64,000 nt of DNA from Vulgatibacter incomptus (lineage in GTDB: Bacteria > Myxococcota > Myxococcia > Myxococcales > Vulgatibacteraceae), in contig NZ_CP012332.1 in assembly GCF_001263175.1 (NCBI RefSeq), forward strand, positions 3,039,501-3,103,500. The letters are read 5' to 3'. Under the pieces are notes generated by a model. It was not told the DNA's origin and searched no databases. It worked only from the letters and a program-made list of their open reading frames with translations. The translations under genes were made by a program, and so were the position numbers. Positions 5,026 through 58,327 of this stretch are shown one piece after another. Numbering within the stretch: the stretch's first letter is position 1; the number at the start of each line of letters is the position of its first letter.

Positions 5026-5043
5026 GGTTCGGATTTTCGAACC
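5026..5043. promoter_or_regulatory. inverted repeat GTTCG-N6-CGAAC, candidate activator site 1
   Basis: GGTTCG and CGAACC arms flank a 6-base centre. The repeat lies about 200 bases upstream of the -24/-12 promoter, a distance that suits an upstream activating sequence for a sigma-54 activator. The same arm spacing recurs at two other places linked to the metzincin genes. Binding is inferred. Confidence 0.5.
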
Positions 5044-5116: not shown

Positions 5117-5132
5117 GTTCGGATCTCCGAAC
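5117..5132. promoter_or_regulatory. inverted repeat GTTCG-N6-CGAAC, candidate activator site 2
   Basis: Perfect 7-base arms GTTCGGA and TCCGAAC around a 2-base centre, the best of the three sites. Its centre is about 128 bases upstream of the -12 element. An overlapping palindrome (CGAAC-CCG-GTTCG) shares its left arm. Confidence 0.55.
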
Positions 5133-5238: not shown

Positions 5239-5254
5239 TGGCATCGGCGCTGCA
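5239..5254 (+). promoter_or_regulatory. sigma-54 (-24/-12) promoter for barrel-metzincin unit 1
   Basis: TGGCATCGGCGCTGCA matches the RpoN consensus TGGCAC-N5-TTGC. The invariant GG and GC dinucleotides are exactly 12 bases apart. The GC lies 50 bases before the ATG of the barrel gene. The promoter of the paralogous metzincin has the same layout and matches at 12 of 16 bases. RpoN itself is encoded in this window. Confidence 0.68.
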
Positions 5255-5302: not shown

Positions 5303-6322
5303 ATGAAGCTACGTCAGATTCTCGGGATCGCAGCCCTAGCGTTACTCTTGCTCCCGGCGGCCCGCGCCTCGGCGCAGAGCCCCGCCCAGGCCATCAAGGA
5401 GGCCGAGGAGGGCGTCGGCGCGGAGAAGAACCCCTGGCGGGGAAGCCGTATTTCGTACGAGCACGGCTCCGCCGCGATCGGTTTCAAGAAGGACGCCGAG
5501 CTCACGTGGAACCCGATCTACGTGCACACGCTCTCCCTCCAGCCCCAGTGGTACTTCAGCAACGCCTTCTACGCGCGGGCCCGCTTCGATCTGGAGCAGG
5601 AGCTGACCAACTCGGACTACACCAACAAGAAGAACGAGCTCGAGTGGAGCGACCTCTCCCTCGAGCTCGCCACCACCGGATGGAAGGAGGAGACCTCCGG
5701 CGTCCGCGTGTCGGGCGGCGTTCGCGTCGCCCTGCCGCTCTCGAAGCTCTCGCATGCGCAGACCCTGAAGCTCGGGATCAGCCCCGGGCTCAGCCTCTCC
5801 CGCTCGTTCGACGTGCTCTCCGGGCTCACCGTCAGCTACGCGGGACGGTTCAACGGGCGAATCTACGATCAGACGACCGCGCAGACCGACGGCCACGGCA
5901 TCGTCGGCTGCAACGACGGCTCGTGTGACTATCTCCGGAACTCCGGCTACCGAAACTCGCCGTGGGACATCGGCCACGGTCCGATGGTCAGCGTCTCGCC
6001 GATCGACGAGCTCTCCCTGACCGCGAGCCTCAGCTTCGTTCGGCAGCAGCTCTTCAAGCTCGGCACCGCCGACGTCACCCTTCCGACCGGGAACACCCAC
6101 CTCGATGGGGCCGATAAGGATCCGAGCGCGCGGTACGTGAGGGTCTTCCTGGTGGACGCCACGTACACGCCCTTCGACGGCTTCTGGGTTTCGGGCGGCA
6201 CCAGCACCATGGCTGGTCAGCTCGCACCGGACTCCAGCGACCGCTCACCCTTCTTCAACCGCTTCACCATGGTCTATCTGGGCATCGGCGCCGAAGTCGA
6301 CGGCCTTCTCTCGCACTTCTAA
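5303..6322 (+). CDS. predicted outer-membrane beta-barrel protein
   Basis: 339-residue secreted protein with a clear signal peptide (residues 1-25, cleavage after ASA). Alternating hydrophobic strands continue to a terminal Phe (LLSHF), the usual signature of an outer-membrane barrel. Two cysteines at GCNDGSCDY may form a loop disulphide. It is the first gene after the sigma-54 promoter and lies 44 bases before the large metzincin. That gap holds a near-perfect 9-base hairpin just ahead of the protease ribosome site. Co-expression suggests it may export, anchor or cooperate with the protease. I recognise no specific family. Confidence 0.75.
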   Translation: MKLRQILGIAALALLLLPAARASAQSPAQAIKEAEEGVGAEKNPWRGSRISYEHGSAAIGFKKDAELTWNPIYVHTLSLQPQWYFSNAFYARARFDLEQELTNSDYTNKKNELEWSDLSLELATTGWKEETSGVRVSGGVRVALPLSKLSHAQTLKLGISPGLSLSRSFDVLSGLTVSYAGRFNGRIYDQTTAQTDGHGIVGCNDGSCDYLRNSGYRNSPWDIGHGPMVSVSPIDELSLTASLSFVRQQLFKLGTADVTLPTGNTHLDGADKDPSARYVRVFLVDATYTPFDGFWVSGGTSTMAGQLAPDSSDRSPFFNRFTMVYLGIGAEVDGLLSHF

Positions 6323-6366: not shown

Positions 6367-9300
6367 ATGAGTTGGATGAACAAAATGTGGAGGAGCTCGA
6401 CGCTGCTTGCAGCGGCGGCCCTCGCTCTTGCCGGCTGTGGCCAGGAGCGGGATCCCTTGAACAGGGTCCAGCCGGATGTGCTGGAGAAGTCGTTCTTCGT
6501 CGGCTCGAACCCCGAAGATCCCTCCGACGCTCCTGAGTTCTACTCGCAGGCGACCATCGTCGACGTCGGCTTCGGCGCGGCGCAGGACGGCCTCTTCACC
6601 TCGACGTACGCCCAGCCCCTCGCGCGCCTGAAGTGGACGATCCAGCAGGACTACCTGATCGGCCGCCTCACGTATGAGCGAATCGACGGCTCCGACGGCA
6701 AGGGCACCGGCGCCGGCCCCCTCCGCAACGAGGGCGTGATCGCGGCGATGTTCAAGATCGAGAAGCACTTCGACATCCAGCGGAGCTACAACCCGACCAC
6801 TGGCGAAGAGCAGAACATCGTCGAGGAGAACACCGACCGCCCCTGGTACGAGCGCAAGTACATGCGGGTCAACTGGTCGAAGAACGAGAACACCGACTCG
6901 TACGACTTCGACACCCTGTCGATGCTCGGGATCATCGGCGGCATCAAGTACGAGTCCTCCTCGTACTTCGTGAATGATCCGTCGGACGAGAATGCCCCGA
7001 AGTTCGTCCCCGAACAGGGCTACTTTGACGTCACGACCAAGGCCTTCGCGGTGCCTCAGCAGGTCGACCTCCGCCGCCTCGGCTGGGGCATCGACAGCTA
7101 CCCCGCGTGCTTCCTCTCGCCCGAGTTCGCCGGCGGCGCCGGCCCGAGTGCGAACTGCAACCCGGTCGAGATCACGATCCGCCACTCGTTCAAGCGCCTC
7201 GAGAACAAGGACTACGAGCCTGCCGACTGGGACGGCTACCGCTTCCAGAACTTCGGCGCCTTCACGACGGAGCGCCTCGGCTACGCCCGCAACTACGGGA
7301 TGACCGACGACCGCCAGTACCGCTTCATCAACCGCTACAACATCTGGGAGCGCAGCCACTACTACGCGAACCCCCAGGAGATGACGGGCGCGATCGAGTG
7401 CTTCACCCCGAACACCACGAAGCCCGGCGAGGATCCGAACCGCGGGTACGCCATCAACGGCACCGCCGACGAGTGCAAGGCCGCCGGCCCCGGCTCGAAG
7501 TGCGACACCTTCAGCCAGAAGTGCACCCTCCCCTACCGTGAGCGCGATATCCGCCCGCAGCCGTGGTACCTCGCGAGCGGCAGCGCTCCCGAGTACTTCG
7601 ACGGCACCAACATGGCGGCCCAGGAGTGGGATACGGCCCTGCGCGCGTCGGTGATGACGGCCCGATACGCGGAGTGCATGGCCACCCGCAAGCCCGGGTC
7701 CACCGAGCCCGAGTGCGACGCCACGTACCCGATCTACCGCGGCCAGCAGAACGAGAACGACGACGCGATCGCCCTCTCGCGCGAGGTGGACTTCTGCTTC
7801 GCCGGCAAGGCCTACCCCCAGTTCGCCGGCAACTGCGAGAAGGTCGCCGATCAGGTCGGTAAGGAGCGCAGCTACTCCGCCGGCGTGATCGAAGTTGCGA
7901 AGCTTCCCCGCATCATCGTCCTCTGCCACAGCCCCGTCGAGGCGGGCGATCCCGCCCAGTGCGGCGGCCCCCGGCTCCCGGCCACCCTCACCGCCGAGCA
8001 GTGCTACGACGCGCGCAACGCCGGCGACAAGGCCACCGTCGCGGTCTGCGACGCGGCCCGCACCGTGCGCCGCGGCGACCTCCGCTACCACCAGGTCAAC
8101 GTGATCACCGCGCCCCAGACCCCGTCGCCTTGGGGCATCATGGTGGACTCGCACGATCCGCTCACGGGTGAGAAGGTCGCGGCCAGCATCAACATCTGGT
8201 CCCACGTGACCGATCTCGCCAGCCAGGGCCTCGTCGATCTCGCCCGCTACGCCGCCGGCGAGCTCACCACCGAGGACGTCACCGAGGGCACCTACGTCTA
8301 CGACTGGTCCAGGGCAGCCGAGTCGGCTGGCAAGGCCGGCTCGCTCTCGCCGATGACCCGCGATCAGCTCGACCAGCGCGTCGCCGACATCACCGGCGTC
8401 TCCGCCGACACGTACCGCAACATCACGGTCGAGGCCTACGGCTCGCGCCGCGGCCGCATCGAAGAGGTCGCGAGCAAGCTCGCAGGGGTCCGCGCCGATC
8501 TGAACGCGCCGTCCGACTTCAAGCACGTGTACGACGCGCGCCGGAAGGCCGCTGTCGCGAACGGGCTCGACGCACTGCTGACCACCAAGGCGATGCAGCA
8601 GTACGCCGGCGTCACCACCAACACCCCCGACTACCAGGTCCTCGCTTCGCCCCTCCAGGGATCGAACCCCAGCCTCATGAGGGACATGCGCAACGCCAGG
8701 GAAGTCGCCCTGGCCGCGCGCGGCACCTGCATGATGTCGGGTGAGGCAGGTGAGGCACCGGCTCCCGTCAGCATCGCCAACCTCGGGAAGGAGCTCCAGC
8801 GGAAGTTCGGCAACTTCAACCCCGCCGACAACGCCGCCACGCAGCTGGCCCGCGCGGAGCGCATGCGCAAGTACATTGCGCACCGCTACAACTACGCCGT
8901 GATCGCCCACGAGATGGGCCACTCGATCGGCCTGCGCCACAACTTCGTGAGCACCTCCGACGCCTGGGGTTACCGCCCGCAGTACTGGCAGCTCCGGACC
9001 AGCAACGGCAAGCGCGTCGCCGAATGCAAGACCCTGCGTGCTGACGACGATTTCAGCTGCGTCGGTCCCCGCTACTTCGATCCGGCCTCGCCGGAGCAGA
9101 GCGAACAGCTCATCCAGATGTTCATGCACTCCTCGGTGATGGACTACCCCGGTGAGCTCTCGCAGGACATGGTCGGTCTCGGCGCGTACGACTTCGCGGC
9201 GGCCCGGTCGTTCTACGGCGACGTCGTTGCCGTGTTCCAGGACCCCAGCTACCTCGCCGGCAAGGCCCGCGGCACCGGCATGCTCGCCAAGGACTCGAAC

Positions 9301-11178
9301 TTCGGTGGAATCCTCGGCATCCAGCCGATGGTCGGCATGGAAACCAACGTCGCCAGGACCCAGACCTTCCACTACTCGCAGCTCCAGAATAACTACGACC
9401 TGATCTCCGACTGCAAGGAGATCACCGCCAGCCAGTTCAAGCCGGCCGTGTGGAACGAGAAGCGCGACGGCAACTGGGATCCGCTCTTCGACGGCATGCT
9501 CGTCACGGTGGACGGCAAGCACACCCGCTGCCAGACCCAGAAGGTCGACTACGTCCCGTACGCCTCGCTGCGCTTCCCGACCTCCCGGGAGATCGACGCC
9601 AACCGGTTCCGCGGCGGTCCCGCGGTCGATCGCTCGTCCCGCGTCCGGGTGCCGTACGGCTTCGCCACCGATCGCTGGGCCGACCTCGGCAACGTTTCCG
9701 TGTACCGTCACGTCAACGGCGCCGACATCTACGAGCTCTTCGACTTCCTGATCACCCAGCAGGAGATGAACCACATCTTCGACAACTACCGTCGAAACCG
9801 GCTCACCTTCAGCATCCGCGGCGCCGCGAACCGCACCCTCTCGCGCTACAACGAGAAGCTTCGTGACGCGGCCAAGGGCCTGGGTCTCATGGTCAACATC
9901 TACAAGGACTACGCCGCCCAGGAAGGCCTGGATTTCGGCACGCTGTGGGCGGCTGTCGTGAAGACCAACAGCTGGGATACCAACCTCATGGCCTCCGGTC
10001 TCGCCTTCGACCACTTCACCCGGCTCACCGCCCGGCCCGAGATCGGTCCCCACGGCATCAGGAAGTTCAAGGGCGCCGAGGATCCGGTCCTCCGGTCCGG
10101 CGCTGGCGTCGAGGTGGTCATCCCCAACGGTGCCTCCGGCGCCTTCGGAGACAAGGTGACCTACGGCGGCAAGCTCGTCGAGAACACCCTCTCCGACAAC
10201 CACGGTGAGTACGACTCCGAGTACACCCTGAACGCCGGCTCGTACTACGAGAAGGCCTTCACGGCGATGCTGATGACCGAGTCGGTCGACAACTTCATCA
10301 GCTCGAGCCTCGATGACTTCGTCGACGCTCGCTACCGCTCGGTGTCCCTCGCCGACGTCTTCCCGGATGGCTTCCGCCGCTGGCTGGGCAATAACCTCAC
10401 CGGTGACGACAACCTCAAGGGTCCGCGCCTCGCGACCCTGGCGAACGGCACGGTCGACCGCGACACCAAGACGCGGCTCCCCACCAAGGGGATCGGCTGG
10501 ACCTCGTGGTGGCCGAGCACCGGCCCCGAGACCTGCTTCGCCGAGGAGAAGAGCATTCGCTGCTCCACCACTCCCACCACCACCTCCCGCGCGATCGATC
10601 CGCAGATCGGCTGGGAGCAGCAGAAGTTCCTGATCGCGTTCACCCTGATGTACCTGCCCGAGAACGCGAAGCAGACCTGGCTCAACCAGATGGCGCTCTG
10701 GGAGAAGGGTCTCGACTCGGATCCCGGCTTCCAGAACCGGATCGAGTTCCACGACCCGCACGGCAAGGTCTGGGTCGCCAAGACCTACGGCCGGGAGACG
10801 ATCTTCGGCAAGTCGGTCCAGAAGGGCATCGGCGCACGGGTCCTCGAGTGGGCGAACGAGCTCACCTCCAAGGCCTACGTGACCGATCCGGGACCCGACC
10901 TCGACGGCGACGGCCAGCCCGACTGGTACGTCCCGGTCCTCGGTGCGGATGGTCAGCCCATCGTGAAGTTCGACCCCACGATGGAGTGGATCAAGCCGGA
11001 CGGGACGTCTGGCGGGTCGGCGCCTGCTGGCTGCAACGCGACCGACAACTCCAAGTGCACGTGCAGCATGAACCGCTCGTGCGTCATGCTCGACAACTAC
11101 GTGCAGGTCCCCTACTTCCTCCGCCAGGCCATCGTGAGCTACGGCTTCACGGGCCTCGGGATGAAGGGCTGGTACTGA
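6367..11178 (+). CDS. large metzincin-type zinc metalloprotease lipoprotein (paralogue 1)
   Basis: 1603-residue exported protein with a lipobox LAGC (Cys24), so probably a membrane-anchored lipoprotein. Residues 848-858 read HEMGHSIGLRH, the full HExxHxxGxxH zinc site of metzincins. A Met-turn SVMDY follows at 923-927. This places it with the Met-zincin (DUF4953/DUF5117-like) proteases. The N-terminal ~800 residues are a large Cys-containing region with no domain I can name. Near the C-terminus DLDGDGQPD (1511-1519) looks like a calcium loop, followed by a Cys cluster (CNATDNSKCTC). A GGAGG ribosome site sits 5 bases before the ATG. It closely resembles the second metzincin in the window along its whole length. 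The substrate is unknown. Confidence 0.88.
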   Translation: MSWMNKMWRSSTLLAAAALALAGCGQERDPLNRVQPDVLEKSFFVGSNPEDPSDAPEFYSQATIVDVGFGAAQDGLFTSTYAQPLARLKWTIQQDYLIGRLTYERIDGSDGKGTGAGPLRNEGVIAAMFKIEKHFDIQRSYNPTTGEEQNIVEENTDRPWYERKYMRVNWSKNENTDSYDFDTLSMLGIIGGIKYESSSYFVNDPSDENAPKFVPEQGYFDVTTKAFAVPQQVDLRRLGWGIDSYPACFLSPEFAGGAGPSANCNPVEITIRHSFKRLENKDYEPADWDGYRFQNFGAFTTERLGYARNYGMTDDRQYRFINRYNIWERSHYYANPQEMTGAIECFTPNTTKPGEDPNRGYAINGTADECKAAGPGSKCDTFSQKCTLPYRERDIRPQPWYLASGSAPEYFDGTNMAAQEWDTALRASVMTARYAECMATRKPGSTEPECDATYPIYRGQQNENDDAIALSREVDFCFAGKAYPQFAGNCEKVADQVGKERSYSAGVIEVAKLPRIIVLCHSPVEAGDPAQCGGPRLPATLTAEQCYDARNAGDKATVAVCDAARTVRRGDLRYHQVNVITAPQTPSPWGIMVDSHDPLTGEKVAASINIWSHVTDLASQGLVDLARYAAGELTTEDVTEGTYVYDWSRAAESAGKAGSLSPMTRDQLDQRVADITGVSADTYRNITVEAYGSRRGRIEEVASKLAGVRADLNAPSDFKHVYDARRKAAVANGLDALLTTKAMQQYAGVTTNTPDYQVLASPLQGSNPSLMRDMRNAREVALAARGTCMMSGEAGEAPAPVSIANLGKELQRKFGNFNPADNAATQLARAERMRKYIAHRYNYAVIAHEMGHSIGLRHNFVSTSDAWGYRPQYWQLRTSNGKRVAECKTLRADDDFSCVGPRYFDPASPEQSEQLIQMFMHSSVMDYPGELSQDMVGLGAYDFAAARSFYGDVVAVFQDPSYLAGKARGTGMLAKDSNFGGILGIQPMVGMETNVARTQTFHYSQLQNNYDLISDCKEITASQFKPAVWNEKRDGNWDPLFDGMLVTVDGKHTRCQTQKVDYVPYASLRFPTSREIDANRFRGGPAVDRSSRVRVPYGFATDRWADLGNVSVYRHVNGADIYELFDFLITQQEMNHIFDNYRRNRLTFSIRGAANRTLSRYNEKLRDAAKGLGLMVNIYKDYAAQEGLDFGTLWAAVVKTNSWDTNLMASGLAFDHFTRLTARPEIGPHGIRKFKGAEDPVLRSGAGVEVVIPNGASGAFGDKVTYGGKLVENTLSDNHGEYDSEYTLNAGSYYEKAFTAMLMTESVDNFISSSLDDFVDARYRSVSLADVFPDGFRRWLGNNLTGDDNLKGPRLATLANGTVDRDTKTRLPTKGIGWTSWWPSTGPETCFAEEKSIRCSTTPTTTSRAIDPQIGWEQQKFLIAFTLMYLPENAKQTWLNQMALWEKGLDSDPGFQNRIEFHDPHGKVWVAKTYGRETIFGKSVQKGIGARVLEWANELTSKAYVTDPGPDLDGDGQPDWYVPVLGADGQPIVKFDPTMEWIKPDGTSGGSAPAGCNATDNSKCTCSMNRSCVMLDNYVQVPYFLRQAIVSYGFTGLGMKGWY

Positions 11179-11185
11179 TGTAATC

Positions 11186-11260
11186 GGAAGACGCGACCCC
11201 GCGTCTTCCCACGAGGCGGCCAGGTCGGGAGCTCCCCGATCTGGCCGCCTCGACATTTTT
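11186..11260 (+). terminator. tandem hairpin terminator after metzincin 1
   Basis: There is a perfect 10-base stem (GGAAGACGCG / CGCGTCTTCC, loop ACCC). It is followed by a second perfect 12-base stem (CGAGGCGGCCAG / CTGGCCGCCTCG) and then ACATTTTT. The second hairpin with its T-run is a textbook intrinsic terminator. It closes the unit and isolates the activator gene downstream. Confidence 0.85.
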
Positions 11261-11337: not shown

Positions 11338-12564
11338 ATGGACGCTTTCGCAACCACTTTCGACAAGCTGGGGATCGTCGGATCGCGCTTCCGCGAGGAC
11401 GTCGCCTCCCAGGTTCAGGCCGCAGTGCTCTCGCGACGCGGCCGGGACGCGGTCCGCCTCGCCGGCCTCACCGGCACCGGCAAGGAGCTCGTCTCCTCCC
11501 TCGTCCACGAGGTCGCCAGGTGCGAGCTCGGCCGCGACGGCGAGATCGTCGAGATCAACTGCGGCAACCTCTCCGACTCGCTCTTCGAGAGCTCCCTCTT
11601 CGGCCATAAGCGCGGCGCGTTCACCGGCGCGAACGCCGATCAGGCGGGTCTGCTCGAGAAGGCGAAGGGCGGCACCCTCGTCCTCGACGAGGTGCAGAAC
11701 CTCTCCCTGGATTCCCAGGGAAGGCTGCTGCGCCTGATCGGCGAGAGGGAGTACCGGCCCGTAGGCTCCACGTCCCTCAAGCGCACCGACGCGCTGATCG
11801 TCCTCGTCTCGAACCTGGACCTGGTGGCGCTCACCAGGGACGGCCGCTTCCGCCGCGATCTCCTCGATCGCGCGCCGGCGAAGATCAACCTCCTCCCTCT
11901 CTGGTCGCGCCGCGAGGACATCTCCGAGCTGGCCACCACCTTCGCCCGCGAGGCCGCCGGCGACAGGGGCTGGACCGAGTTCGAGGGTCCCACCCGCCGG
12001 GCGCTCGCCGATCTCGAGGGCGCCCTCGTAGAGCATCGCGAGACGTCGGTGCGCAGGTTGCGCGAGCTGGTTCGGGACGCCGTCTTCGCCTTCGAAGGCC
12101 AGGACCCGATCTCGCTCGAGAGCAGCGCGTTCTCTAAGGTGCTTCGAGATTTCTACGGGGCCGGCACAGAGGACCGGGACGCCTGGGATCGCGCGGACAT
12201 CGAGGAGCGGTTCGACCTCGCGATCGAGGCCCAGACGGTCGCGCGGATCGCCGAGCTCCACGCCCTGCCCCAGACCACCTTGCTCAAGCTGGCCCGAGTC
12301 TTGCGTGAGCTCCATGGGTCGCTCACCGGCGGAGAGAAGCCGGTGCCGTCCAGCTATCGAAACCTCATGGCCCGAACGTCGCTCGCCACGAAGGCTGCGC
12401 TCTGGCTGCTCAGCGGGGCGCGGAACCAGAGCGAGTTCCGGCGGTTCTTCGGAACGAACCCCCACGAGATGCCGCCGAAGAGCGTCGCGTGGCAGATCTA
12501 CCACGACGTCTTCGGCTCCCTCGAGGAGACGTCTCCGCCCGGCACCGGCGAGGAATTGAATTGA
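11338..12564 (+). CDS. sigma-54-interacting AAA+ activator core without receiver or obvious HTH
   Basis: 408-residue bacterial enhancer-binding protein core. Walker A GLTGTGKE is at 43-50, the sigma-54-contacting loop GAFTGA at 93-98 and Walker B TLVLDE at 113-118. A lid region with Arg residues follows (SRREDI). Only ~20 residues precede the AAA+ fold, so there is no receiver, GAF or FHA sensor. The C-terminal ~130 residues show no convincing Fis-type helix-turn-helix. It is coupled by a one-base stop/start overlap to a winged-helix protein that could supply DNA binding or control. It lies between the two sigma-54-promoted metzincin units and is their most likely regulator (inference). Confidence 0.87.
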   Translation: MDAFATTFDKLGIVGSRFREDVASQVQAAVLSRRGRDAVRLAGLTGTGKELVSSLVHEVARCELGRDGEIVEINCGNLSDSLFESSLFGHKRGAFTGANADQAGLLEKAKGGTLVLDEVQNLSLDSQGRLLRLIGEREYRPVGSTSLKRTDALIVLVSNLDLVALTRDGRFRRDLLDRAPAKINLLPLWSRREDISELATTFAREAAGDRGWTEFEGPTRRALADLEGALVEHRETSVRRLRELVRDAVFAFEGQDPISLESSAFSKVLRDFYGAGTEDRDAWDRADIEERFDLAIEAQTVARIAELHALPQTTLLKLARVLRELHGSLTGGEKPVPSSYRNLMARTSLATKAALWLLSGARNQSEFRRFFGTNPHEMPPKSVAWQIYHDVFGSLEETSPPGTGEELN

Positions 12565-13292
12565 TGTCGGCCAGCGTCGCGAAAATCTACAGCGAGACCG
12601 GGTGGGACGCCCTCTCGGGCGAGGTCCCAATCATCGTGCGCGTCCTCTCGGGAGCGGCGACCCTGGAAGAGCTGGCCGACGCCGCCGGGGAGCGCGATCT
12701 CGTCCGCATGCGAAAGCGGCTCTCGAGGTTGGTGCGTGAGGGGATCCTCGTGCAGCAGGGCGCTCTCTACGAAGCGACCGCGCGCGCCTTCGAGAGCGAC
12801 CGCCAGGAAGGGATGCTCACCACGGTGGCGCGCCACTTCCTCCCGGTCATCGCGAAGGTCGCGAACGATCCGTCCAGCGGCTTCGTGGCGCAGGTCGATC
12901 TCGACCTCGACGAGGCAGAGCAGGAGGCGTTCTGCTCCGTGGGCGAGCAAGCGCTGCTGGAAGAGCTGACCGCGCTCACGGAGCTCCCGGCTCCCGCCAA
13001 GGAGCCCTGGGCGCTGGTGGTAATGGCCACTTCGGACGTCCCGCCCGAAGACCCGACACAGGAGCGGCTCATGGAGACGCTCCGGCGCTGCGCCAGGCAG
13101 CGCGCCACCGCTTCGCTGGCGCCGCGTTCCGTACTGCGTTATCTGGAGGGGCACTTCGGGGATCCCGGCGCCGCCGTGGAGCTCGTCCGAAAGGCCGCTT
13201 CGAAGTTGGGGGAGCGGCGGCCGGGCCGGCGCTTTTCCGTGACCTACACATTTTGCGCGTCCCCGCGCACCACCGTTGGAGAATGGCGATGA
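12564..13292 (+). CDS. winged-helix partner of the sigma-54 activator
   Basis: 242-residue protein that I do not recognise as a named family. Residues ~20-72 have the pattern of a winged helix-turn-helix: a helical start, LEELADAAGERDLVRMRKRLSRLV as helices 2 and 3, then a short wing. The remaining ~170 residues look alpha/beta with an acidic middle. The ATG shares one base with the stop of the AAA+ gene, and GAGGAA lies 9 bases upstream. Its own stop overlaps the next start. Tight coupling suggests a DNA-binding, sensor or anti-activator subunit for the AAA+ protein. This role is inferred from context. Confidence 0.72.
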   Translation: MSASVAKIYSETGWDALSGEVPIIVRVLSGAATLEELADAAGERDLVRMRKRLSRLVREGILVQQGALYEATARAFESDRQEGMLTTVARHFLPVIAKVANDPSSGFVAQVDLDLDEAEQEAFCSVGEQALLEELTALTELPAPAKEPWALVVMATSDVPPEDPTQERLMETLRRCARQRATASLAPRSVLRYLEGHFGDPGAAVELVRKAASKLGERRPGRRFSVTYTFCASPRTTVGEWR

Positions 13293-13753
13293 GGCCCCTT
13301 CTTTCCACAATGGCGGCGCTGCTCGTCCTCGGGCTTCCGTTGGCCTCGGCCCAGGCTGGCGTCGTGATCATCAACGCGCGCGACGGAGGACGCTATGCGT
13401 ACTTCGATCCCTCCACGGGAACCTTTCTGACGCAGAGCCAAGGCAGCCAGGGAGGTCAGGACGACTCGCTCCGAACCGGCCCGGCTAACGTGATCCCGCC
13501 CCGACCTGGCACCCCTGGTTCGCCCGGGACGCCCGGCACGCCAGGCGCTTCCGGCTCGGACGAGTCCAGCGAGTCGTCCGGTTCGAGCGGCTCCTACCGT
13601 CCCGGCCGGTACGAGCTCAAGCAGATCGCCGACGGGTCGATCACGCCGGACGAGGCCATGGCGGGTTGCGGGGGCGCGAGCGCTGCCGCAGGCCCTGGAG
13701 GCCTCCTGCCCCTCGCGATCGCATCCCTCGCGCTCCTGCGCCGGCGCCGGTAG
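13289..13753 (+). CDS. secreted collagen-like protein with MYXO-CTERM-like tail
   Basis: 154-residue exported protein. A signal peptide (~1-23) is followed by a short globular part, a collagen-like stretch of G-T-P/G-S-P triplets, a Ser/Glu-rich linker, and a C-terminal sorting tail. The tail has Cys-Gly-Gly, then Gly/Pro, a hydrophobic helix and RRRR at the end. This matches the MYXO-CTERM type of surface-sorting signal used in myxobacteria. The chosen ATG overlaps the upstream stop (ATGA) with GGAGA 6 bases before it; an ATG two codons earlier is less well placed. Placement with the regulator pair suggests a sensor or surface partner, unproven. Confidence 0.78.
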   Translation: MRPLLSTMAALLVLGLPLASAQAGVVIINARDGGRYAYFDPSTGTFLTQSQGSQGGQDDSLRTGPANVIPPRPGTPGSPGTPGTPGASGSDESSESSGSSGSYRPGRYELKQIADGSITPDEAMAGCGGASAAAGPGGLLPLAIASLALLRRRR

Positions 13754-13874: not shown

Positions 13875-14186
13875 ATGTCCATGCACATCGACTTCCCGAC
13901 CCGCCTCCCCGTCTCCGAGGCCAAGGCCCGCCTCCAGCGCCTCGGCGAGTACCTCCAAGCCAAGCACGGAATCGGCGTAGCCTGGCAGGGCGACGAAGGG
14001 ACGATCCGTGGCCGCTACCTGGTGGTCGCGATCGAGGGGACGGTCTCGGTGCGCGAAGGGATGGTCACCTTCGACGGCAAGGATCCGGGCCTCCTCTGGC
14101 GGAGCAAGGCCAAGGAGTACCTCACCCACAAGATGAGCAAGTATCTCGATCCGGCCGTACCGATCGACATGCTCCCGAGCGCGTAG
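13875..14186 (+). CDS. polyhydroxyalkanoic acid system (PHA_gran_rgn) family protein
   Basis: 103-residue cytoplasmic protein matching the small PHA-granule-region family: N-terminal ID-FPTRLPVSEAKARL helix, then WQGDEGTIRGRYL and VREGMVTFDGK strands, then a C-terminal helix. The family is often found near polyhydroxyalkanoate genes, but its function is not settled. No PHA synthase is in the window. A start two codons later (second ATG) is possible. It ends just before the inverted repeat and promoter of metzincin 2 and is probably transcribed separately. Confidence 0.78.
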   Translation: MSMHIDFPTRLPVSEAKARLQRLGEYLQAKHGIGVAWQGDEGTIRGRYLVVAIEGTVSVREGMVTFDGKDPGLLWRSKAKEYLTHKMSKYLDPAVPIDMLPSA

Positions 14187-14241: not shown

Positions 14242-14257
14242 GTTCGATCCTCCGAAC
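14242..14257. promoter_or_regulatory. inverted repeat GTTCG-N6-CGAAC, candidate activator site 3
   Basis: 5-base arms with the same 6-base spacing as the two sites upstream of the barrel gene. It is centred about 103 bases upstream of the -12 element of the metzincin 2 promoter. Two further GTTCG half-sites flank it, near 14221 and 14300. Confidence 0.5.
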
Positions 14258-14338: not shown

Positions 14339-14354
14339 TGGCACGCGCACTGCA
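14339..14354 (+). promoter_or_regulatory. sigma-54 (-24/-12) promoter for metzincin 2
   Basis: TGGCACGCGCACTGCA is a strong match to the RpoN consensus. It is preceded by T, giving TTGGCACG. GG and GC are 12 bases apart, and the GC lies 51 bases before the chosen ATG. This is nearly identical in geometry to the promoter of the first metzincin unit. Confidence 0.75.
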
Positions 14355-14403: not shown

Positions 14404-17400
14404 ATGAAGCCTCGAAGGGATCGCGGTGCGCGGAGGCGTGCCCAGTCATTCTTCCCGCTACGCTGTAGCTCGTTTGCGCTGTTGGCGCTCCTTGCTCTCG
14501 GCACGGGCTGCAGCAAGGGCAGAGAACCGGCCGAGCGGGTGCAGCAGCCTGGGCCGCACGCGCTGGAAAAATCATTTTTCGTCGGCAAGGACCCCGGGGA
14601 TCCCTCGAGCGCTCCCGAGTTTTACTCGCGAGCCACCCTCGTCGGCGTCGGCTACAGCGAAGGAAATGACGAACGCTTCACCGCCGCCTCCGAGCGCCTC
14701 GCGCGCCTCAAGTGGACGATCTACGAGGACTTCCTGATCGGCCGCCTGACCTACGAACGCGTCGACGGCAATAGCGTCGATCGGCTGCGCAACGACGGCG
14801 TGATCGCGGCGATGTTCAGGATCGGGAGGCACGTCGACTTCCAGCGTAGGTACAACCCCGCCACCGGCGAAAACCTATACGTCGAGGATACGGAATCCCG
14901 CCCCTGGTACGAGCGGAAGTACATGCAGGTGGATTGGTCGAAGAACCTCAACACGGACAGCTACGACTTCGACACCCTGTCGATGATGGGCGTCTACGGC
15001 GGCGTGAAGTACGAGCCCAGCTCGTACTACCTGAACGATCCCGCCGACCCGGATGCTCCGCGGTTCGACCTCGAGAACGGCTACTTCGACATCACCACCA
15101 AGGTCTTCGCGGTCCCGCAGCAGGTGGACCTGCGCCACCTCGGCTGGGGAATCGACAGCTACCCCGCGTGCTTCCTCGGGGACACGATCGGCAGCGGGTC
15201 CGGGCCCTCCACCAGCTGCAACCCCGCGGAGTTGACGATCCGGCAGTCGTTCAAGCGCGTCACGAACACCGACTACGAGCCGGCGGACTGGGACGGGTAC
15301 CGCTCGCAGGCCTTTGGGGCCTTGACCTCCAATCGCTTCGCCCCCCGTGGCTACGAGTACGGCGGAGACCGCCAGAACCGCTTCATCAACCGCTACAACA
15401 TCTGGGAGCGAAGCCACTTCTATCGGGATCCGGCCGCGATGACCGGCGCGATCGAGTGCTCCACCCCTGCGACCACGCCCGCCGACGCGGACCCGAACCG
15501 CGGCTTCGCCGCCAACGGCACCGCCGACGAGTGCGTCTCCGCCGGCGCCGGCTCGAGGTGCGACACCTTCAACCAGAAGTGCACCCTCCCCTTCCGCGCC
15601 CGCAAGGTCCGGCCGCAGCCCTTGTTCTTCACCCTCGGTAGCAATCTCGACTACTTCGACGCCACCGACCGGGCGACCCAGGAGTGGGATACGGCCCTGC
15701 GCGCCGCCGTGATGAGCGCTCGCTATGCCGAGTGCATGGCGACCCGGGGGAAGGGCTCCGCAGAAGCGGCTTGCGAGGATCGCTTCCCGGTCTACTTTGG
15801 CCAGCAGGAAGAGAACGACGACGCGATCGCCCTCTCCCGCGAGATGGATTCCTGCCTCCGCGGCAAGGCCTACCCGGACTTCGCAGGTCGCTGCGACGAG
15901 GTGGCGGAGCAGCTGGGGAGGGACCGCGGCTACTCCAAGGGAGTCATCGAGGTCGCCAAGCTGAATCGGATCCTCGTCCTCTGCCACAGCCCGGTGGAGG
16001 CCAACGATCCCGCCGAGTGCGGCGGCCCCCGGCTCCCGGCCGGCGTCACGGCCCGAAAGTGCGAGGAAGCCCGCGACGTCCGCGACCTGGGCACCATGGA
16101 GATCTGCGATGGAGCGCTCTCGGCTCGTCGCGGTGACCTCCGCTACCACCAGGTAAACGTGCTCGCCGCTCCGCAGAGCGGTTCGCCCTGGGCGATCATG
16201 GCGGACGCCAGCGATCCCCTCTCCGGCGAGAAGATCTCCGCGAGCATCGACGTCTCCTCCCACGTCACCGACCTGCTGAGCCAGGACCTCGTGGACATCG
16301 CGCGCTACGCAGCGGGCGAGCTCCCCAAGGGGGGCCTCAACGAGGCAGAGTTCGTATACGACTGGTCCGGCGTCGCCAAGGCCGCCAGCAAGGGCGGAGG
16401 TGCCCTCCCCCCGCTGACCCGCGAGGAGCTTGAGCGGCGCCTCGCCGAGGCCTCCGGCGTCTCACCGGAGACGTTTCGCGAGGCGTCGCTCGACCGGCTC
16501 CCGAGCGCGATCGTGGGCCAGGTGGACGCGATCGCCGCGAGAGTCGATGGCATCCGCTCCGACGTGAACGCTCCATCCGACTTCGAGCCGATCTACGAGG
16601 CGCGCCGCAAGGCCGCCGTCGACGACCATCTCGACATGGCGCTGACCACCAAGGCGATGCAGGAGTACGCAGGGAGCGCCTTCAACTTCCCCGGTTTCAT
16701 GACCTTGGCCTCGCCGCTCCAGGGCGCGAACCCCGTCCTCGCGAGGAAGATGCGCAGCGCCAAGGAGGTCGCCCTGGCGGAGCACGGAGCCTGCGTGCTC
16801 GGAGACCCGCCCGCCCCGGTCTCCATCGCCAACCTCGCCAGGCACCTCGAGCGCAAGTTCGGCGCCGTCGATTCCAAGGACGGTGTCGCTAGCCAGCTCG
16901 AACGCGCCGAACGCATGCGCCGCTACCTCGCGAGCCGCCTCCATTCCTCGTTGATCGCCCACGAGCTGGGGCACTCGGTCGCGCTTCGCCACAACTTCGT
17001 GAGCTCATCGGACGCCTGGGGCTATCGGCCGCAGTACTGGCAGCTCCGAACCCGAGACGGCGAGCGGAAGGAGGCGTGCACCGACCTGAACACGCCCGCC
17101 GATTGCGTCGGCCCGCGCTACTTCGACCCGGTCTCGGACGAGCAGAGCGACGAGCTCATCCAGATGTTCATGCACTCCTCCGTGATGGACCACCCCGGCG
17201 AGATCCTCCAGGACATGGTCGGCCTCGGCGCCTACGACTTCGCGGCGGCCCGGTCGTTCTACGGCGACACCATCGCGGTCTTCGGCGATCCGAGCTACCG
17301 CGCGGGCCTCCCCCGTGGCACCGGCATGCTCGCCAAGGACGGGAACTTCGGCGGAACCATCGGCATGCGCCCCATGATCGGGGGCGAAGGCAAGGACGCG

Positions 17401-19206
17401 TCCAAGACGACGACCTTCCACTACTCCCAGATCCAGAACGCATTTTCCGTGATCGACGACTGCCGGGCGGTGGACGCCACCCGCTTCGAGCCCGCGGCCT
17501 GGGACGAGAAGCGAAACGGCGCCTGGGATCCGCTCTTCGACGGCTTCATGGTCAAGGTGAATGGATCTCACACTCGATGCAAGACGCAGCAGGTCGACTA
17601 CGTGCCCTACGCCTCGCTGCGCTTTCCGACGAACCAGGAGATCCGCACGGAGAGCTATCGAGGCGGACCTTCCGTCGATCCCTCCCTCCGGGTCCGGGTG
17701 CCGTACGGCTTCGCCACCGATCGCTGGGCGGACACAGGAAACGTCTCCGTGCTCCGCTACGACAACGGCGCCGACATCTACGAGCTCTTCGACTTCCTGA
17801 TCGCCCAGAAGGAGATGAGCCACATCCTCGACAACCACCCTCGGAACAAACTCACGTTCAGCGTTCGTGCCACCGTGACTCGCAGCCTCGCCCGCTACGA
17901 CGAGAAACTTCGCGACGCGACGAAGGGCCTCGGCCTCCAGCTCAACATCTGCCGCGACCTTGCCAACAAGGCCGGCCACGATCCTGGCTCGCTCTGCGCC
18001 GCGGTGGTCAAGGCCAACAGCCTGGAAGGCAACCTCCTCGCCTCGGGCCTCGCCTTCGATCACTTCAGCCGGCTGCTCGCCAGGCCTGAGGCCGGACCGC
18101 ACTCCGTCGAGCGCCTCGGCAATGGGAACGACGACGTGCTCCGCTCCGGCGCGCCGAGCGGTGCGCGCCCCGAGGTGATCGTTCCCTACGGCGCCACGGG
18201 CCGGTTCGGCGGCGTCTCGTACGGCGGAATGCCGGTGGGGAACGTCTTCGCCAGAGACGATGACGGCTACAAGCCCTTGGGCGCGGGCTCGTACTACGAG
18301 AAGGCCTGGTCGGCGATGCTGATGACCGAGTCGGTCGACAACTTCATCGGCGCGGGCCTCGACGAATTCGTCGACGCCCGCTTCCGCGCGGTCTCCCTCG
18401 CCGACATCTTCCCGGACGGCTACCGGCGCTGGCTGGCGAACAACCTCACGGGGGACGACGCGATCAAGGGGCCGCGGCTCGCAACCGACGCAGCGTTCCG
18501 CGTCCGAACCGACGCCGACCTTCTCCCGTCCGGAATCGCTTGGACCTCCTGGTGGCCCGCCAGCGGCCCCGAGAGCTGCTCTACCGAGAACATGAGCGTT
18601 CTCTGCACGACCATCCCCGCGAGCTCACGCCCCGTCGATCCGCAGGTGGGCTGGGAGCAGCAGAAGTTCCTGATCGCATACACGCTGATGTATCTGCCCG
18701 AGAATTCGAAACAGGCCTGGCTGGACCAGCTCGCTATCTGGGAAGTCGGCCATGACGACGATCCCGGCTTCGCGAACCGGATCGAGCTCCACGATCCATG
18801 GGGCACGATCTGGGTCGCGAGGACCTTCGGCAAGGAGACGATCTTCGGCAAGACGGTCCAGAAGGGGATCGCCGCCCGGGTGCTCGAGTACGCGAACGAG
18901 CTCGTCTTCAAGGCATACGAGACCGAGCCCGGGACCGACCTCGACGGCGACGGCAGTCCCGACTGGTATGTCCCGGTGCTGGGCTCGAACGACCAGCCCA
19001 GGGTGAAATTCGATCCCACGATGAAGTGGCTCACTCCGAACGGAGCGCCGCCTGCCGGCTGCAACGAGACCGATAACTCCAAGTGCACCTGCGACCAGAA
19101 CCGCGCGTGCGTCGAGCTCGGCAACTACTCGCAGCTCCCGTACTTCCTCCGCCAGGCCCTCGGGAGCTTCGGGTTCAGCGTCCCGGGGATGAAGGGCTCG
19201 CAGTAG
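14404..19206 (+). CDS. large metzincin-type metalloprotease lipoprotein (paralogue 2)
   Basis: 1600-residue paralogue of the first metzincin, collinear from the mature N-terminus (LEKSFFVG) to the C-terminal Cys cluster and PYFLRQA segment. The signal peptide ends in GTGC (Cys36) with Leu at -4, a slightly off-consensus lipobox. The zinc site at 853-863 reads HELGHSVALRH: all three His and the Glu are kept, but the family's Gly is replaced by Ala860. The Met-turn SVMDH is at 926-930, and the calcium-like loop DLDGDGSPD is retained. The ATG has GGAGGGG 9 bases upstream; a longer TTG start would overlap the promoter and is rejected. The 3' end overlaps the convergent alcohol dehydrogenase by 32 bases. 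Confidence 0.87.
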   Translation: MKPRRDRGARRRAQSFFPLRCSSFALLALLALGTGCSKGREPAERVQQPGPHALEKSFFVGKDPGDPSSAPEFYSRATLVGVGYSEGNDERFTAASERLARLKWTIYEDFLIGRLTYERVDGNSVDRLRNDGVIAAMFRIGRHVDFQRRYNPATGENLYVEDTESRPWYERKYMQVDWSKNLNTDSYDFDTLSMMGVYGGVKYEPSSYYLNDPADPDAPRFDLENGYFDITTKVFAVPQQVDLRHLGWGIDSYPACFLGDTIGSGSGPSTSCNPAELTIRQSFKRVTNTDYEPADWDGYRSQAFGALTSNRFAPRGYEYGGDRQNRFINRYNIWERSHFYRDPAAMTGAIECSTPATTPADADPNRGFAANGTADECVSAGAGSRCDTFNQKCTLPFRARKVRPQPLFFTLGSNLDYFDATDRATQEWDTALRAAVMSARYAECMATRGKGSAEAACEDRFPVYFGQQEENDDAIALSREMDSCLRGKAYPDFAGRCDEVAEQLGRDRGYSKGVIEVAKLNRILVLCHSPVEANDPAECGGPRLPAGVTARKCEEARDVRDLGTMEICDGALSARRGDLRYHQVNVLAAPQSGSPWAIMADASDPLSGEKISASIDVSSHVTDLLSQDLVDIARYAAGELPKGGLNEAEFVYDWSGVAKAASKGGGALPPLTREELERRLAEASGVSPETFREASLDRLPSAIVGQVDAIAARVDGIRSDVNAPSDFEPIYEARRKAAVDDHLDMALTTKAMQEYAGSAFNFPGFMTLASPLQGANPVLARKMRSAKEVALAEHGACVLGDPPAPVSIANLARHLERKFGAVDSKDGVASQLERAERMRRYLASRLHSSLIAHELGHSVALRHNFVSSSDAWGYRPQYWQLRTRDGERKEACTDLNTPADCVGPRYFDPVSDEQSDELIQMFMHSSVMDHPGEILQDMVGLGAYDFAAARSFYGDTIAVFGDPSYRAGLPRGTGMLAKDGNFGGTIGMRPMIGGEGKDASKTTTFHYSQIQNAFSVIDDCRAVDATRFEPAAWDEKRNGAWDPLFDGFMVKVNGSHTRCKTQQVDYVPYASLRFPTNQEIRTESYRGGPSVDPSLRVRVPYGFATDRWADTGNVSVLRYDNGADIYELFDFLIAQKEMSHILDNHPRNKLTFSVRATVTRSLARYDEKLRDATKGLGLQLNICRDLANKAGHDPGSLCAAVVKANSLEGNLLASGLAFDHFSRLLARPEAGPHSVERLGNGNDDVLRSGAPSGARPEVIVPYGATGRFGGVSYGGMPVGNVFARDDDGYKPLGAGSYYEKAWSAMLMTESVDNFIGAGLDEFVDARFRAVSLADIFPDGYRRWLANNLTGDDAIKGPRLATDAAFRVRTDADLLPSGIAWTSWWPASGPESCSTENMSVLCTTIPASSRPVDPQVGWEQQKFLIAYTLMYLPENSKQAWLDQLAIWEVGHDDDPGFANRIELHDPWGTIWVARTFGKETIFGKTVQKGIAARVLEYANELVFKAYETEPGTDLDGDGSPDWYVPVLGSNDQPRVKFDPTMKWLTPNGAPPAGCNETDNSKCTCDQNRACVELGNYSQLPYFLRQALGSFGFSVPGMKGSQ

Positions 19207-54403: not shown

Positions 54404-55915
54404 TTAATAGATCTTCCGTCGCTTGCTGGACGGGAGGATCCCGATCTCCTCCCGGTACTTGGCCACGGTCCGCCGGGCGATCACGATCTTCTCGAGCCTG
54501 AGCAGCTCGACCAGCTTCTGATCGGAGTGGGGCGTCGTCTCCGACGCGACGATCCGCTTGATCGCGGCCTTGACCGCCTCGCTCGCCACCTCGTCGCCGC
54601 CGGACTTGGCGATGGCGGAGTTGAAGAACCACTTGAGCTCGAAGATCCCCTGGGGCGTGTGCACGTATTTGTTCGTGGTCACGCGCGACACCGTGGACTC
54701 GTGCATCTGGATGTCTTCGGCGACGTCCTTGAGGATCAGCGGCTTCAGCTGCGAGACCCCGTGGTCCAGGAAGTCCCGCTGGAACTTCACGATCGACTCG
54801 GTGACCTTGTGGATCGTGCGCTGCCGCTGGTGGATGGAGCGGATCAGCCACAGCGCCGATCGCAGCTTCTCCTGGATGAACTCCTTGGAGCCGTTCGCCT
54901 TCGCGTCGCCGTTGCGGAGCGCGTCGCGGTAGTGGTGGCTGATCCGGAGCTTCGAGAGCCCGTCGTCGTTCACCACCACCATGTATTCGTCGCCCACCTT
55001 GTGCACGTAGACATCGGGCGTGATGTACTGCGCTTCCTCGGAGACGAAGTGGCGGGCGGGCCGGGGGTCCATCTCGGCGATGGTCTTCACCGCCTCGATC
55101 ACGTCCTCCCGGACGTCGTCCTTCTCCGCCTTGGTCTCCTTGGCCCATTCCTTGACGATGGCCTCGAGGTTCTTGGACTCGAGGGCCTTCAGGAAGCGGC
55201 GGATGATCACGCCGACGAGGGTGCCCTCTTCTCCCCAGGCGCGGGCCTGGATCAGCAGGCACTCCTGCAGGTCGCGGGCGCAGACGCCGAGCGGCTCGAG
55301 CTTCTGGAGCTTCCCGAGGGCGCTCGCCGCCACCGCCAGGCTGGCCCCCGCCTCGGCGGCCACGGCGATCAGCGGGTCTCCCTCGAAGTCCTCGATCCGG
55401 AAGTAGCCGAAGTCGTCGAGGTTGCCGAGGATCAGGAGCGCCACCGTCTCCTCCTCCTCGGCGAAGTCGGCGAGGCGCATCTGGGCGACGAGGTGCTCGA
55501 AGAGGGTCTCTTCCCGGGTGAGGTTCGCCTCGAAGGGAGGCAGGTCCTCGGACATCCCCTTGTTCGAGGCCGTGGTCGGCGTGAGCTGGTAGCTGTTGAG
55601 GTAGTTCTCCCAGTCGATCTCGTTCTGCCCGTCGGCGCCCTTCACCTCCTCGGAACGGTTCTCGGGAGGCTCGGGCGCCGCCCTCTCCTGCTCCACGAAG
55701 CGCTCGATCGAGGTCAGCTCCTCCGCCGACTCGGCGCGATCCTGGTCGATGGTGCTGGTCGGCTCCTCCAGGAGCGGGTTCTGCTCGATCTCCTCGCGGA
55801 TCAGGGACTCGAGCTCGAGCCGGGAGAGCTGCAGGAGCTTGATCGCCTGCTGCAGCTGGGGCGTCATCACCAGCTGCTGCGACATTCTCAGGTGCTGCTT
55901 GAGCTCCAGCGACAT
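54404..55915 (-). CDS. rpoN: RNA polymerase sigma-54 factor
   Basis: 503-residue sigma-54. Region I is Gln/Leu-rich (LKQHLRMSQQLVMTPQLQQA), followed by an acidic linker (~55-110), the core-binding region, and a C-terminal RpoN box ARRTVAKYRE near 480-489 that reads the -24 element. GGGAG precedes the ATG. It is downstream of lptB, the classical neighbour. It is the factor expected to read the two -24/-12 promoters near the metzincin genes, together with the AAA+ activator in this window. Confidence 0.96.
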   Translation of the reverse strand: MSLELKQHLRMSQQLVMTPQLQQAIKLLQLSRLELESLIREEIEQNPLLEEPTSTIDQDRAESAEELTSIERFVEQERAAPEPPENRSEEVKGADGQNEIDWENYLNSYQLTPTTASNKGMSEDLPPFEANLTREETLFEHLVAQMRLADFAEEEETVALLILGNLDDFGYFRIEDFEGDPLIAVAAEAGASLAVAASALGKLQKLEPLGVCARDLQECLLIQARAWGEEGTLVGVIIRRFLKALESKNLEAIVKEWAKETKAEKDDVREDVIEAVKTIAEMDPRPARHFVSEEAQYITPDVYVHKVGDEYMVVVNDDGLSKLRISHHYRDALRNGDAKANGSKEFIQEKLRSALWLIRSIHQRQRTIHKVTESIVKFQRDFLDHGVSQLKPLILKDVAEDIQMHESTVSRVTTNKYVHTPQGIFELKWFFNSAIAKSGGDEVASEAVKAAIKRIVASETTPHSDQKLVELLRLEKIVIARRTVAKYREEIGILPSSKRRKIY

Positions 55916-58171: not shown

Positions 58172-58327
58172 CGAGGCCCGCGAAAAGGGCCGGTTTTCTT
58201 GCAATCGAGCGACCATCGACGCCTGTGAGGCTAGCATCCTTTGGATCCTGCCGTAAAGGTTCGAAGCGAGTTGGGGCACGAAACTTGCTAATAAGCCCAA
58301 CGTCCCGCGCCCACCCTCCATTCGCGG

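Follow-up and report, generated by a model that had tools for sequence, protein, structure and literature searches.

Within the 64,000-nucleotide stretch of the Vulgatibacter incomptus genome that we analysed (the window, whose numbering is used throughout; the genome is a single contig of 4,350,553 bp), we identified a previously unnamed operon that is conserved in distant Myxococcota. It encodes a sigma-54 enhancer-binding protein (EBP) without N-terminal regulatory domain (408 aa; 11338–12564), a winged-helix (WH) protein (242 aa; 12564–13292) and a small exported protein (13289–13753), all on the plus strand. An inverted repeat next to the cassette, GTTCG-N6-CGAAC, suggests that the operon switches on neighbouring secreted-protease genes and, in relatives, a folded RNA. 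We lean towards a PspF-like activator, in the style of the group 4 EBPs, that would read this repeat itself, with the WH protein as its trans partner and the flanking genes as its targets.

Conservation and coupling of the three genes

We searched 195 Myxococcota genomes with two profiles, one for the C-terminal region of the activator (CTD, described below) and one for the WH protein. Both matched the same six genomes of three families (the window genome G000, G162, G187, G192, G193 and G194), a count in which some genomes with first-look candidates were only partly scored, so that missed copies are conceivable. Neither a CTD without a WH protein nor a WH protein without a CTD was found among the 195 genomes. 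The order of EBP, WH and small exported protein recurs in 6/6 genomes holding the CTD, the cassette of G193 being spread over two contigs, and overlapping starts recur as well. A coupled order that recurs in six genomes is therefore not due to chance. In a scan of genome contigs, the WH query matched nothing and the CTD alignment matched three MAG contigs, which we took as G162, G194 and G192, with nothing new beyond the phylum.

In the window, a strong terminator-like hairpin of 18 pairs (11212–11252, plus strand) lies between the first metalloprotease gene and the cassette. The couplings proposed in the first-pass annotation were borne out: the EBP and WH genes overlap by one base (TGATG), and the ATG of the third gene at 13289 overlaps the WH stop as ATGA, an in-frame ATG at 13283 being an alternative start.

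The product of the third gene had been described as a collagen-like MYXO-CTERM surface protein. In all six cassettes, it has a signal peptide followed by a conserved AG[GVI][IV]I stretch, and the body of the protein is poorly conserved. Its C terminus (GC...TM...RRRR; 13664–13750, plus strand) resembles the MYXO-CTERM pattern, defined as a Cys-containing signature, a transmembrane helix and an Arg-rich C terminus (PMC11980579), and these three elements are present in 6/6 orthologues. The signal peptide, invariant Cys, transmembrane helix and Arg cluster are thus shared with MYXO-CTERM/myxosortase proteins, but the score of 14.4 bits is just under the curated cut-offs of TIGR03901 (20) and TIGR03382 (15.85), and the end is best called MYXO-CTERM-like. 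The collagen-like character comes from a short GxP run in the window copy alone and is absent from the orthologues. The protein is probably an exported cargo made together with the regulators.

Directly downstream of the cassette lies a gene for a PHA_gran_rgn protein (Pfam; 13875–14186), and G162 carries a similar small gene at the equivalent place (L014:10304–10615). Judged from translations, ExbB/TolQ- and ExbD-like genes are found downstream of the G192 cassette (L017:5036–6054), and an ExbB-like gene is also present in G193 (L035, minus strand).

The activator and its winged-helix partner

Sigma-54 activators are usually one-chain machines. The window protein, 44–63% identical to its orthologues, contains an AAA+ sigma-54 interaction core (11443–12102, plus strand) with the motifs Walker A (GLTGTGKE), Walker B (GTLVLDE) and FRRDLLDR and a sensor-II region. 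The GAFTGA loop for sigma-54 contact occupies residues 93–98 (11614–11631, plus strand) and is replaced by GAYTGA in the orthologues of G192 and G193. Residues 36–178 matched Sigma54_activat (PF00158) with an E value of 8.6e-43, and Foldseek superposed the AAA+ model on the structures of NtrC1, FleQ and PspF. As first noted, the protein has almost nothing before the AAA+ fold: only ~35 residues precede the Pfam match and these are part of the fold, leaving no N-terminal regulatory domain.

In the whole genome, AAA+ sigma-54 activator cores were found at 20 loci. The Fis-type helix-turn-helix (HTH) HTH_8 was above the Pfam cut-off in 19/19 of the other loci, and the window EBP, with no profile match to HTH_8, was the sole exception. 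RpoN is present, as two genes with a sigma-54 DNA-binding domain were identified; these lie in the window at 54413–54883 (minus strand) and at genome positions 2078499–2078975. The top NCBIfam match of the AAA+ core was RtcR, the CARF-AAA+-HTH RNA-repair activator whose operons may include noncoding RNAs (PMC7790460). We rejected this identity: the match of 172.6 bits covered the AAA+ part only and was far from the cut-off of 650 bits, the CARF domain is absent and has no room, and no adjoining rtcBA genes are present here. PADLOC matches to defence systems, an RtcR-type AAA+ and a weak Csa3 winged helix (E 0.022), were likewise dismissed as nothing specific.

The description of the activator as a bare AAA+ core was wrong, because residues ~255–400 form a conserved CTD of ~150 residues, in which 40 of 150 columns are invariant among five genomes. 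No Pfam family matched the CTD above cut-off. In hhalign comparisons, residues 300–322 (TVARIAELHALPQTTLLKLARVL; 12235–12303, plus strand) aligned in register with helices 2–3 of Fis HTHs from the same genome, and the score was reached by 0/200 column-shuffled alignments for the whole CTD and by 0/120 for the segment. This divergent HTH-like stretch is under every curated Pfam cut-off, and its would-be recognition helix differs between genomes. The earlier view that the protein has no convincing C-terminal Fis-type HTH thus stands for HTH_8 but has to be qualified for this stretch. The AF2 model of the CTD was of low confidence. The most conserved segment of the CTD, residues 338–392 (YRN..ALWL.SGA..Q.EFRRFFG..EMP.KSVA.QIY; 12349–12513, plus strand), has 25 of 53 columns invariant across six genomes, with no Pfam family at cut-off and no HTH similarity in hhalign. 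The block 340–392 looks trihelical in the low-confidence AF2 model but was rejected as a Fis-like HTH, 37/120 shuffles being as good in hhalign.

For the WH protein, AF2 predicted with confidence the winged helix claimed at first (residues 21–71; 12624–12776, plus strand; pLDDT about 90), followed by a C-terminal alpha/beta domain of four strands. Foldseek gave no identity for the model, returning generic winged helices only, ArsR-type among them, and no match for the alpha/beta half. Pfam and NCBIfam had no match to the window protein at E ≤ 10, and the TIGR02147 and DUF4423 profiles matched none of five WH orthologues. When aligned with DUF4423 proteins of the same phylum by hhalign, 110 columns were in register, with a single-comparison E value of 0.011 and a score equalled by 0/60 shuffles. 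The order of a winged helix and then a beta-alpha-beta segment appears to be shared with the TIGR02147/DUF4423 HTH proteins, whereas the profiles miss the WH protein and it adds a strand-helix-strand at the C terminus. From these alignments, we read the WH protein as a remote relative of DUF4423 and not as a member. The WH orthologues are only 23–27% identical overall, and a 7-residue indel in the recognition region separates lineages; the CTD of the EBP is far more conserved.

Inverted repeat, promoters and a structured RNA

The repeat GTTCG-N6-CGAAC was found by comparing the cassette promoters. A motif search of the window gave three exact copies, all intergenic, in comparison with 0.11 expected and at most 1 in each of 100 shuffles. 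These candidate enhancers (UAS) are located at 5027–5042 (GTTCGGATTTTCGAAC), 5117–5132 (GTTCGGATCTCCGAAC) and 14242–14257 (GTTCGATCCTCCGAAC), upstream of the operon 5303–6322 and 6367–11178 and of the gene starting at 14404. The presumed targets, all on the plus strand, are a 339-aa exported protein (5303–6322), a 1603-aa metzincin-like metalloprotease (HEMGHSIGLRHN; 6367–11178; Pfam DUF4953) and a second metzincin-like protein of ~1600 aa (14404–19206; sequence and Pfam); the two metzincin-like proteins are paralogous and flank the cassette. A relative of them is encoded upstream of the G162 cassette (L014:2983–7758).

Both presumed target units have a sigma-54-like site after the repeats. 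The one at 14339–14354 (TGGCACGCGCACTGCA, plus strand) has one mismatch and lies 82 bp past the repeat (shuffle P value 0.004), 0.18 one-mismatch sites being expected across the whole window. The (-24/-12)-like site ahead of the 5303 gene is weak (5239–5254, TGGCATCGGCGCTGCA, plus strand; shuffle P value 0.08). Another one-mismatch site, GGGCACGAAACTTGCT, is found at 58274–58289 and has no exact repeat close by.

In the other genomes, the repeat is associated with the cassette itself: an exact copy is found shortly upstream of the EBP gene in 5/5, and the promoter of the EBP gene in the window genome has no GTTCG-N6-CGAAC. In G187, G192, G193 and G194, tandem repeats with ~32 bp spacing (the second copy deviates at a single position in G187 and G194) abut the -35 element of the EBP's own promoter. 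They lie between this promoter and a divergent sigma-54-like site that points away from the EBP gene, its -12 element in G192 and G193 being TTGAA and not TTGCA. In G162, a one-mismatch repeat precedes the protease operon, and a sigma-54 site is not recognisable there. Sigma-54-like sites at a fitting distance and orientation were found in 6/6 promoters tested, with shuffle P values of 0.002–0.08 and a combined value of 4e-7, which are optimistic because the motif and the promoter windows were picked after inspection. The window genome contains 16 further exact repeats, several of them inside genes and 1/16 with a comparable site nearby. The idea that all 19 exact repeats form one regulon was rejected: most of those outside the window are genic or without a sigma-54-like site, and we regard them as background.

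Behind the divergent promoter of G187, G192, G193 and G194 lies a segment of ~140–150 nt that folds into a three-way junction in 4/4 (approximate loci L015:7556–7720, L016 minus strand about 6000–6200, L017:9590–9800 and L034:1740–1900), with fold z-scores from −3.8 to −7.6. The layout consists of a long closing stem, an arm A with UGGGCA in an internal loop and an arm B presenting GUACCC; if one mismatch is allowed, UGGGCAC could base-pair with GUACCCA. Pairing in the stems is kept with changed bases and the loops are unchanged, which is suggestive of covariation among four sequences rather than a formal test of it. No Rfam family matched the RNA. The exact motif has three matches in the 195 genomes, all beside the cassette, G194 carrying a diverged form, and none was found in the window genome or in G162. 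The three-way junction is a candidate for a new noncoding RNA family.

Behind the RNA, the same four genomes carry a small ribbon-helix-helix-like gene (MSKVVHLSDDAH...; L015:7919–8170, L017:9965–10228, L034:2105–2377 and L016 minus strand), whose product has no Pfam match. We rejected it as a part of the cassette, as it is found in three cassette-free genomes and is missing from the window genome.

Recognition of the repeat and relation to known activators

The AAA+ core with GAFTGA and the lack of an N-terminal regulatory domain are shared with the group 4 EBPs (PspF, HrpR/S), and regulation in trans is expected for both. For PspF, the inhibitor acting in trans is PspA, and expression is negatively autoregulated (PMC7229158, PMC7175178). 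A further feature of the PspF type is seen in the four relatives, where the enhancer-like repeat is flanked by the promoter of the EBP gene on one side and by a divergent sigma-54-like promoter on the other. PspF differs in having a recognisable HTH, in place of which we see the conserved unnamed CTD, and in its partner, PspA there and a co-operonic WH protein here. As the layout matches that of PspF (a sensor-less activator with trans inhibition and autoregulation), we favour the EBP as the reader of its own repeat: it would most likely bind GTTCG-N6-CGAAC through its divergent CTD and, together with RpoN, act on nearby sigma-54 promoters. In the window genome, these would be the promoters of the two flanking metzincin-like protease operons; in the four distant relatives, the divergent promoter and then the structured RNA. 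Counting against this reading are an HTH-like stretch that stays under the cut-offs and has a variable would-be recognition helix over an invariant repeat, the low-confidence AF2 model of the CTD, the missing repeat at the EBP promoter of the window genome, the TTGAA of G192 and G193 and the weak 5239 site. Translational coupling would give the WH protein at a level matched to the EBP. The WH protein would be a dedicated partner that most likely regulates the activity of the activator, the part that PspA plays for PspF, and it may possibly be the ligand-sensing component. We infer this regulation throughout, the action of the WH protein on the EBP from the coupling and co-occurrence of the two genes. 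A trans-acting partner is reasonable for a sensor-less EBP, given the coupled unit and the 6/6 co-occurrence of CTD and WH protein.

The first-pass annotation had the functions divided over separate subunits. A conserved and coupled unit is what we found, but the part of that proposal in which DNA binding has moved to the WH protein was weakened. In such an arrangement, the WH protein would bind the repeat and recruit the AAA+ hexamer via the CTD, the EBP itself reading no DNA. The strict pairing of the two coupled genes, the confident winged helix in the partner, the lack of HTH_8 in an EBP whose 19 sister activators all have it, and a most conserved CTD block that could serve as a docking surface are all consistent with this. 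The recognition region of the WH protein is, however, variable over an invariant repeat, which makes a split reader less likely, and the better conserved CTD of the EBP holds an HTH-like stretch of its own. The same objection touches the HTH-like stretch of the EBP less strongly. On balance, we consider recognition by the WH protein rather unlikely, though it is the alternative that survives best.

FlgR and CtcC, of group 5, and FleT are described as activators that lack a DNA-binding domain and act from solution. The absence of any recognised HTH family is common to them and to the EBP; they differ from the EBP in that its conserved CTD includes an HTH-like stretch and its operon is accompanied by enhancer-like repeats. 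That the EBP acts from solution without specific DNA binding, the repeat belonging to an unrelated regulator of, for example, the cassette promoter, appears improbable to us. No HTH in the EBP passes a family cut-off, the repeat abuts the -35 element in four genomes, a typical place for a repressor, and FleT, the only activator known without both end domains (PMC7175178), is a precedent; but in six cases the spacing between the repeats and a sigma-54-like promoter is that expected of an enhancer, and the repeats of the window genome are at the protease operons only and not at the cassette promoter.

The suggestion of a surface sensor, the MYXO-CTERM-like protein signalling to the WH protein or EBP on, for example, envelope protein sorting, is very improbable and unsupported: the third gene is present in 6/6 cassettes with a short conserved stretch right after the signal peptide, but its body is poorly conserved, the cassette has no conserved membrane protein to connect it to two soluble proteins, and the EBP and WH protein have no membrane segment (maximum 19-residue hydropathy 1.2 and 1.35 vs 2.2 for the third-gene signal peptide).

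The inverted repeat at sigma-54-like promoters and the RNA absent from Rfam appear to be new. We tentatively entertain the wider possibility that this is a sigma-54 regulator of a new class: an EBP with an unnamed CTD and an obligate WH protein would share enhancer recognition and control, acting on GTTCG-N6-CGAAC and, in part of the range, driving a three-way-junction RNA with pairable loops. An EBP whose end domains are outside the known families and which is always paired with a WH protein is a test case for rearrangements of sensing and of enhancer recognition. With predicted enhancer, promoters and targets in a sequenced genome, the regulation can be tested directly, and the RNA confined to cassette-bearing genomes may represent a new noncoding RNA family.
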